Assembly (NCBI GenBank): GCA_020073615.1
Contig: JAIQEX010000001.1
Coordinates: forward strand, 1 to 64,000
DNA from: Terriglobia bacterium
GTDB taxonomy: Bacteria > Acidobacteriota > Terriglobia > Bryobacterales > Bryobacteraceae
Direction of reading: 5' to 3'
Length of the DNA stretch: 64,000 bases
Positions 40,397 to 41,735 of the stretch are shown piece by piece. A program made the translations under genes and the position numbers. The stretch's first letter is position 1. Every line of letters begins with the position of its first letter. Under the pieces are notes generated by a model. It saw nothing but the letters and a program-made list of their open reading frames with translations. It ran no database searches and was not told the origin of the DNA.

Positions 40397-40417
40397 TGAG
40401 GGTTATGTAGGCTTAAG

Positions 40418-40450
40418 ACAGGCGCTCCTTGCGGGGCGCCTGTTTTTTTT
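40418..40450 (+). terminator. Intrinsic terminator of receptor gene 4
   Basis: Arms ACAGGCGC (40418-40425) and GCGCCTGT (40436-40443) are followed by a run of eight T. The stem is nearly the same as that after receptor gene 2, so the terminators appear to have been copied with the genes. Confidence 0.9.
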
Positions 40451-40459
40451 GCTTTGATC

Positions 40460-40876
40460 TCAGTGACCGGCCGTGGCCACGCGATATCGCCGCCGGAATC
40501 GCGACAGGTACGGCGCTCCCGCCGGCGCCGGTTCCGGAAGGCACTCGGCGTGAATCGCATCCAGCATACCGGCGGCCTGCGCGCTGGCCGGGTCGAATCC
40601 ATACGCCTCCAGCGCGCGGCGAACCTCCTCCAGCCGTCCCGCATAGGCGGGAAACTCCACCAGCGTGGTGGCCACTTCCTCGCGCCGGTCGGCGTACTGG
40701 TACACCATGACGGCATCGTGATAGACCTGCGGGTTGACGGGAAAACTCGTTTGCGACAGCGTCTCCAGCAGCGACTCCAGGTCGCGCGGGTCCACGTCGA
40801 TCGAGATGGAAATCAGGTCGCCTTCGCTGCCGGACAGCGAAGAAACGGCCGGTACGGTTTTAGGACAGACAGTCAT
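40460..40876 (-). CDS. Hypothetical protein behind a structured leader
   Basis: This is a 138-residue soluble protein that I do not recognise. It begins MTVCPKTVPAVSSLSGSEGD and has an acidic alternation of strand and helix (LISISIDVDPRDLESLLETL, VYHDAVMVYQYADRREEV, LEEVRRALEAYGFD) before a basic tail (YLSRFRRRYRV). No signal peptide, membrane segment or metal motif is seen. The start at 40876 has GGAGGG just upstream; a frame from 40918 would run into the terminator hairpin. The gene lies 41 nt after an intrinsic terminator that ends a structured leader (40917-41039), so expression may be controlled by attenuation. It is convergent with receptor gene 4. Confidence 0.65.
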   Translation of the reverse strand: MTVCPKTVPAVSSLSGSEGDLISISIDVDPRDLESLLETLSQTSFPVNPQVYHDAVMVYQYADRREEVATTLVEFPAYAGRLEEVRRALEAYGFDPASAQAAGMLDAIHAECLPEPAPAGAPYLSRFRRRYRVATAGH

Positions 40877-40916
40877 CCAACCCTCCAGCACCGGGCGATG
40901 CCGGGCCACTCGCAAC

Positions 40917-40945
40917 AAAAAACCCTGGAGCCAGAGGCGCCAGGG
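40917..40945 (-). terminator. Intrinsic terminator within the leader
   Basis: A nine-base-pair stem with one mismatch (40923-40945) is followed on the minus strand by six U (40922-40917), located 41 nt before the start codon at 40876. Such a terminator in front of a gene, rather than behind one, points to attenuation. Confidence 0.75.
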
Positions 40946-41039
40946 TCGAAATGTTCTCGAACAGACCGACTCGCCTTTAGCACTTTTTTTCGTGGTTGCA
41001 ATTAGCCAGGCTCACATGAGCCTTAAATCAATCCACGTA
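40917..41039 (-). ncRNA. Candidate structured leader RNA with terminator
   Basis: Reading the minus strand from the predicted start near 41039: a basal stem CGTGG/CCACG encloses a 7-bp dyad AGGCTCA...TGAGCCT (41008-41023). An A-rich linker and GTGCTAAAGGCGAGTC follow, then a hairpin GGTC-TGTTC-GA-GAACA-TTTC-GACC. Last comes the terminator stem CCCTGG-C-GCC, loop TCT, GGC-T-CCAGGG (40923-40945) with six U. The order of promoter, folded domain, intrinsic terminator and gene is that of a riboswitch or attenuator. I cannot match it to a known class. It could also be a short sRNA with the gene reached by readthrough. Confidence 0.55.
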
Positions 41040-41045
41040 TATCTA

Positions 41046-41075
41046 AGAATACCACCCCTGCCCTGGGCGAAGCAA
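41046..41075 (-). promoter_or_regulatory. Promoter of the structured leader
   Basis: On the minus strand, TTGCTT (41075-41070), an 18-bp spacer and TATTCT (41051-41046) preceded by TGG form an extended -10 promoter. A start about 7 nt downstream puts the basal stem of the leader RNA right at its 5' end. Confidence 0.55.
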
Positions 41076-41158
41076 TAGTTTTTGTATTCCGCAAAACTGC
41101 GCCGTGCATTGCCATACGCCGCTCCACAATGCTAGGCTGCAAGCATCTGGAGGAGATG

Positions 41159-41707
41159 ATGAAGCTGTCTTTTGCATTGGCCGGTGCGCTGTTGGCGGCC
41201 AACCTTTTCGCCCAAAACGTGCAGCCGCCGCATACCAGCCTGAAGGTCGGCGACATGGCGCCCGATTTCACCCTGCCCGCCACCACCCCGCAGCGGGCCA
41301 ACGTCAAACTCTCGGACTTCCGCGGCAAATCCAACGTCGTCCTGGCCTTCTTTACCGCGGCCTTCACCGGTGGTTGAACGCAGGAAGTTAAAGCCTACCA
41401 GGCTGGTATGGCAAAATTTGAAGCTTCCGACACCAAAGTTTTTGGCATTAGTACGGACACTGTCTTTTCGCAGAGAGAATTCGCCGCCAAGAACAACATC
41501 ACCTTCCCCATGCTGAGCGATTTCGCGAAGCGCCAGGTTTCCACCGATTACGGCGTGTTGATGCCCGAATACGGCCTGGACAATCGCGCCACCTTCGTGA
41601 TCGACAAGGAGGGCAAGATCGCTTTCATCGAGGAGGGCAACAAGGCCATCGATCCGGCCGGCGCCGATGAGGCGTGCAGCCGCCTGGCGCATAAAGAGGC
41701 GAAGTAG
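41159..41707 (+). CDS. Exported peroxiredoxin, probable selenoprotein (Sec73)
   Basis: This AhpC/TSA-fold peroxidase has 182 residues if the in-frame TGA at 41375-41377 is read as selenocysteine. A signal peptide covers about 1-19 (NLFAQ). [11 protein letters not shown] and [17 protein letters not shown] lead to TAAFTGG-Sec-TQEV, where family members have TGGCT with the peroxidatic Cys; the usual Pro seven residues before it is Thr here. The frame continues with [25 protein letters not shown] and [12 protein letters not shown], all normal for a peroxiredoxin. GGAGG lies before ATG 41159 (an adjacent ATG at 41156 is possible). A SECIS-like hairpin follows the TGA. The alternative is a nonsense mutation or sequencing error. 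Confidence 0.85.
41393..41412 (+). promoter_or_regulatory. bSECIS-like hairpin after in-frame TGA
   Basis: GCC-TACC pairs with GGTA-GGC, with one bulged T on the 3' side (41409). The apical loop AGGCT can tighten to the triloop GGC. The loop GG (41401-41402) begins 23 nt after the TGA. A stem of 7 bp, a small loop starting with G and this spacing fit the bacterial SECIS pattern bound by SelB; in E. coli fdhF the bulged U is on the 5' side instead. Confidence 0.65.
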
Positions 41708-41735
41708 CAAAATCGAGCCGGCCGCTCGCGTGGCG

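Follow-up and report, generated by a model that had tools for sequence, protein, structure and literature searches.

Introduction

A riboswitch points to the pathway of the gene under its control. Known SAM-II riboswitches include both those that act through a terminator and those that act through the Shine-Dalgarno sequence, most of them carrying terminators (PMC6061858, PMC2258182, PMC1273637). The ligand site of this class is virtually that of SAM-V, in whose solved structure the adenine of SAM pairs with U47, which is itself bonded to U8, while the sulfonium is next to the triple U20:A48.U9 and the amino-acid end binds A50 (PMC6061858).

The window analyzed here, a stretch of 64,000 nucleotides from a Terriglobia bacterium of the Bryobacteraceae (Acidobacteriota), carries on its minus strand an RNA of this ordinary, already known class in front of an unusual target, a member of a new and conserved orphan protein family. 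The leader is most probably a SAM-II riboswitch that serves as a transcriptional OFF switch for this one small gene (probability about 0.83); the aptamer, promoter, terminator and linkage are read from sequence, and from them we infer the response to SAM.

The SAM-II Aptamer

The following elements were assigned to the aptamer:

40967..41042, minus strand: SAM-II aptamer (Rfam RF01726)
40991..41037, minus strand: P1, CGUGG (41037-41033) with CCACG (40995-40991)
41025..41029, minus strand: third strand GAUUU in L1
41008..41023, minus strand: P3, a predicted hairpin inserted in the aptamer loop between L1 and the P2 strand
40978..41001, minus strand: P2 pseudoknot, UUGC (41001-40998) with GCUA (40981-40978)
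40973..41006, minus strand: P2a, GCU (41006-41004) with GGC (40975-40973)

The preliminary description could not assign the fold to a known riboswitch class. An assignment is possible, as cmscan against Rfam matched SAM-II at 46.3 bits (E 1.1e-5 with the entire window searched), a score only 2 bits above the curated cut-off of 44, below which most scored relatives fall. It was the single Rfam match over the curated cut-off in the entire window, which places the leader in a known class and rules out a novel one, and a covariance model built for this family scored the window aptamer at 86.4 bits. Membership in SAM-V was also rejected, since cmscan, even with E values up to 1 allowed, found nothing that matched the SAM-V model and the extra hairpin is placed elsewhere. 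The genome gave no SAM-II match besides the window copy and no SAM-I RNA, and its metX region had neither a SAM-II match nor any other Rfam match.

The core consists of P1, GAUUU, the UUGC/GCUA pseudoknot and an A-rich linker. Among 78 relatives, 99.2% of cells were paired in P1, which in other Acidobacteriota reads CCUGG/CCAGG and GCUGG/CCAGC. The GAUUU strand, whose counterpart lines the ligand site of relatives with solved structures (PMC6061858), was invariant in 78/78, as were the columns of P2 (97.6% of cells paired). The three pairs of P2a were formed in 72-78 of the 78, and its outer position varied as GC, GU, AU and UA with pairing kept. Covariation was also detected in P3, where both sides had changed at 5/5 counted pairs. 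One relative (L104) has GCUACA where the others have GCUAAA.

By homology, U47, U8, U20, A48, U9 and A50 of SAM-V correspond to positions 40979, 41027, 41000, 40978, 41026 and 40976, and the equivalents of U8-U10, U19, U20, G21, U47, A48 and A50 were invariant in 78/78 distinct relatives. Judged by its sequence, the leader is a SAM-II aptamer with every base that by homology contacts SAM. The position of A18 (SAM-V numbering; 41002), the partner of A50, is C in about 39/87 relatives, and this C is linked with G at a site in L1; these relatives retain A50, and the window copy retains A18.

Promoter, Leader and Gene

The remainder of the transcription unit, together with the 3' hairpin, comprises:

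41046..41075, minus strand: promoter, -35 TTGCTT (41075-41070) and extended -10 TGGTATTCT (41054-41046)
40917..40945, minus strand: intrinsic terminator, hairpin CCCUGGCGCC-UCU-GGCUCCAGGG (40945-40923; 9 pairs, one mismatch) followed by six U (40922-40917)
40882..40886, minus strand: Shine-Dalgarno GGAGG, 5 nt before the ATG
40460..40876, minus strand: gene of a 138-residue protein of no known family (open reading frame, homologues and models; GlnB/ACT-type ferredoxin-like fold predicted)
40415..40446, strand not assigned: terminator hairpin 3' of the gene, from the scan

At this level the preliminary description was borne out, in its sequences as well as its coordinates. Its extended -10 promoter is present, with a -35/-10 spacer of 18 nt, and TTG plus TAnnnT at promoter spacing 5' of the aptamer was found in 76/86 distinct relatives, as opposed to 2.0 in shuffles; the promoter is absent from the list given by a strict sigma-70 scan of the window. 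The 5' arm of the first stem, said to begin at the transcript start, is that of P1, starting at 41037, about 9 nt past the -10, and these positions show a predicted start of the RNA at P1. The near-perfect terminator with six U was recovered both from the sequence and by a generic scan of the window, the ATG of the 138-codon gene does follow about 40 nt beyond 40917 (at 40876), and the proposal of a riboswitch-type attenuation unit is supported, the leader being a SAM-II aptamer plus terminator before a gene. That the terminator might serve another transcript was ruled out, because the next upstream gene is transcribed divergently and the conserved leader contains the terminator.

The leader was more stable than 200/200 dinucleotide shuffles (z -3.6), and terminator hairpins in 59 relatives averaged -18.6 kcal/mol. 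The terminator hairpins of L069, L048 and L055 have inner stems of unusual length. The Shine-Dalgarno sequence is kept in the leader alignment. In the same alignment, GCCGGAUGCUGGAGG before the start codon (about 40896-40882) is conserved beyond the needs of this element and of helix H (see below), and no pairing partner was found for it. The hairpin 3' of the gene appears placed to be shared with a convergent TonB-receptor gene.

On the other side of the promoter lies a peroxiredoxin gene (AhpC/TSA; 41129-41710, plus strand) in which an in-frame UGA occupies precisely the position of the peroxidatic cysteine (AAFTGG-U-TQEV). Several other genomes of the order share this UGA, one has Cys in its place, and the window's genome carries a tRNA-Sec (77.7 bits); by its sequence, the product is very likely a selenoprotein.

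Proposed Switching Mechanism

The aptamer tail GCUAAAGGCG stands before the terminator (40945-40917), and two further helices that use it were predicted:

40935..40978, minus strand: proposed antiterminator, tail AGGCG (40976-40972) with CGCCU (40939-40935) in the 5' arm of the terminator, from folds and covariation
40894..40975, minus strand: helix H, tail GGCGAGUCGGUC (40975-40964) with GGCCCGGCAUCGCC (40907-40894), from cross-species swaps and leader folds

The tail thereby has three fates that are at least partly mutually exclusive, namely the P2/P2a pseudoknot, the antiterminator with (C)GCCU(UU), and helix H. When SAM is bound, the pseudoknot would hold the tail GCUAAAGGC and block the antiterminator, so that the terminator would form and transcription would end before the gene. 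When SAM is lacking, the tail AAAGGCG would pair with CGCCU(UU) in the 5' arm of the terminator, and polymerase would read through. Helix H encloses the terminator, its 3' side being the stretch between terminator and Shine-Dalgarno, and it is possible in read-through RNA only. It can have no part in the choice between stop and read-through, since the polymerase has already passed the terminator when the 3' arm of H is transcribed; it may instead keep the tail off the aptamer after read-through, which suggests a way in which the finished mRNA could be locked in the ON state.

Comparison across species favored both helices. The antiterminator scored -13.18 for real species pairs versus -12.33 (sd 0.22) for swapped partners, and helix H -16.03 versus -14.07 (sd 0.23), each beating 200/200 partner swaps, whereas a control pair of regions stayed within the range of its own cross-species swaps. 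Pairing between the tail and the terminator arm before hairpin closure was predicted in 39/59 leaders with strong terminators, whereas shuffled arms gave 21 (maximum 27), and helix H was present in the folded full leader of 55/59. Predicted helices that use aptamer bases and exclude the terminator exist and covary. In minimum-energy folds of the growing window transcript, the antiterminator was present at 113 nt, followed by the terminator from 119 nt and by helix H from about 143 nt; the window antiterminator has 5 pairs and is weaker than the terminator. The second hairpin of the preliminary description (about 40970-40944) is one among several competing folds.

Linkage between RNA and Protein

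The preliminary description had made its reading depend on conservation of the leader upstream of orthologues of the protein, and this test left the reading standing. Named MAGs (records of Bryobacterales and of other Acidobacteriota) yielded eight orthologues, and in 8/8 a SAM-II RNA lay some 80-185 nt upstream, separated from the gene by a terminator; the same RNA accompanied 96/100 members of the family. The latter figure comes from 200 genomes of the window's order, searched with a profile for the protein and with the covariance model for the RNA. The protein occurred in 100 of them and the RNA in 99, always as one copy each; both were present in 96 genomes, neither in 97, and one alone in 7. 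The RNA and the protein are plainly linked (Fisher p 1e-47, a value that is uncorrected for kinship and, the genomes being related, overstates the independent evidence). Among the three genomes with the RNA only, two carry next to it a copy of the protein that is diverged or frame-shifted, and in one the RNA lies at a contig end; the protein lacks the RNA in four genomes (G344, G386, G401 and G491).

A deep profile run against 297 genomes across the phylum retrieved relatives of the protein from the window's own genome only. No constant neighbor gene that might be an operon partner was found among relatives; one subclade shares a block with a sigma-factor-like gene, and the window's subclade has the Sec-peroxiredoxin neighbor. 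A link to the presence of MetX or MetE was rejected: MetX-type matches were present in 81/81 genomes, and MetE-like matches showed no clear split.

Diversity of Expression Platforms

The same gene was found behind three different platforms. The terminator platform occurs in most relatives. In several genera the aptamer tail is itself the Shine-Dalgarno sequence (AAAGGAG..ATG; for example, GCUAAAGGAGUUGCCUCAUG), so that binding of SAM would directly hide the ribosome site, an arrangement that also fits repression by SAM. In the third group about 90 nt carry no terminator, and the tail forms a helix with downstream sequence. On the protein tree, which has few resolved forks, members with the same platform group together, and platforms appear to have changed more than once. 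Such variety around a constant pair argues that selection keeps the aptamer-gene pair and not the platform, and one pair with three platforms offers a natural series for studying how mechanisms change in riboswitches.

The 138-Residue Protein and Its Possible Role

Members of the protein family are about 80 to 155 residues long and share the core LVSVxIxVxPRxLExLLEALAxxxFPINPxIxH...TxVEFPAY. E34, L37 and F75 are invariant in 69 members, N48, P49, L33, L40 and P76 are nearly so, and H53 is also among the conserved residues of this set. Searches of Pfam, NCBIfam and PDB profiles with the protein gave no match, and profiles in Pfam and PDB likewise gave no sign of membership in GlnB/PII. Two AlphaFold models, built from nine sequences, reached a mean pLDDT of 67 for the window protein and 75 for a short orthologue (core 80-91), that is, medium confidence, and both predict a ferredoxin-like beta-alpha-beta-beta-alpha-beta order. 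The nearest solved folds among the matches listed were GlnK/PII, the ACT domains of aspartokinase, and CutA, with a best E of 7e-4 and TM of about 0.5; this weak resemblance between a model and solved structures would indicate a fold class rather than a family.

Both PII and ACT domains sense small molecules. Taken together with the riboswitch, these folds suggest that the protein regulates or assists methionine/SAM metabolism, and our tentative guess, which leans on the models, is a small ferredoxin-fold protein with such a role that would be made when SAM is short. A more specific and rather doubtful proposal is a two-tier circuit, in which the only SAM-II riboswitch of this bacterial family would drive, in place of a methionine enzyme, a metabolite-binding GlnB/ACT-like protein that regulates the methionine/SAM pathway in trans; if true, an RNA sensor would drive a protein sensor of the same pathway. 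The riboswitch offers a first clue to the function of a protein family that had no annotation and occurs in about half of the genomes sampled from a soil-dwelling order (Bryobacterales MAGs).

SAM-II RNAs were also detected elsewhere in the phylum. In other families, they stand with terminators before methionine synthase (metH-type) genes (L002-L006), and threonine-synthase-like genes (TIGR00260; L163, L164, L165 and L166) in further families of the class are preceded by SAM-II RNAs that have short loops and terminators. Repression of a threonine synthase by SAM would be odd, so the TIGR00260-type enzyme may do something else. By analogy, these sites support the pathway suggested for the 138-residue protein, not its exact role. 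A further SAM-II RNA (L162:2235-2295, minus strand; 48.6 bits) lies directly before a gene for an Oar-like TonB-dependent outer-membrane protein. A search of open-access papers found no earlier description of SAM-II RNAs from this lineage or of such a target.

Alternative Explanations

A promoter, a compact conserved fold and a terminator make up a complete small-RNA gene, and the terminated RNA might itself be the main product, acting in trans, with the downstream gene secondary. In Sinorhizobium meliloti, the SAM-II leaders of metZ and metA do yield small RNAs, the terminated RNAs RZ and RA (PMC9373788). This explanation is nevertheless improbable here, because the RNA accompanies the one gene in 96/99 genomes, and because the leaders of several genera have no terminator and use the tail as Shine-Dalgarno, which is sensible only in cis. 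The aptamer might also have changed its ligand, for example to SAH or another compound of the methionine cycle, as could be suspected from the C at the A18 position in about 39/87 relatives, with its linked G in L1, and from a target that is not a known methionine gene. However, the bases that touch SAM or flank the sulfonium are all invariant and A18 is kept in the window copy, which makes such a change similarly hard to credit.

An ON switch, in which SAM favors expression and the protein consumes SAM, for instance as a SAM lyase, has a structural argument on its side: the phage SAM lyase Svi3-3 forms a trimer whose subunits are ferredoxin-like and of the GlnB type (PMC7877911), and the fold predicted for the 138-residue protein is of the same type. 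Yet all platforms found place the tail in the SAM-bound pseudoknot and predict OFF, the protein has no sequence match, and no SAM lyase is named among the 50 PDB and 50 viral fold matches listed. A SAM lyase is recognized by a catalytic Tyr and Glu; the residues conserved here include E34, F75, N48 and H53, candidate counterparts at most. Expression favored by SAM is thus very improbable, and a SAM-repressed transcriptional switch in cis is the reading preferred here.

Comparison with Known Systems

On the protein side, GlnB/PII and the ACT domains of aspartokinase resemble the 138-residue protein in the predicted beta-alpha-beta-beta-alpha-beta order, at TM of about 0.5 with identity below 20% and no sequence-profile match. 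On the RNA side, the metZ leader of S. meliloti has the same succession of aptamer and terminator with a predicted stop on SAM binding, but metZ encodes a methionine enzyme, and the accessible part of that report describes no helix comparable to H (PMC9373788). The SAM-II 'long loops' variant (RF01726; Weinberg et al. 2010, PMC2864571) shares P1, the GAUUU of L1, the UUGC/GCUAAA pseudoknot and the A-rich linker; its examples came from Bacteroidetes and marine samples, whereas the present RNA has a covarying P3 and precedes an orphan gene of Acidobacteriota. SAM-V (PMC6061858) is alike in its nearly identical SAM site, its H-type pseudoknot and an extra hairpin that is also named P3; in SAM-V, however, this hairpin comes after the 3' strand of P1 and regulation acts on translation, whereas here the hairpin is inserted between L1 and P2.
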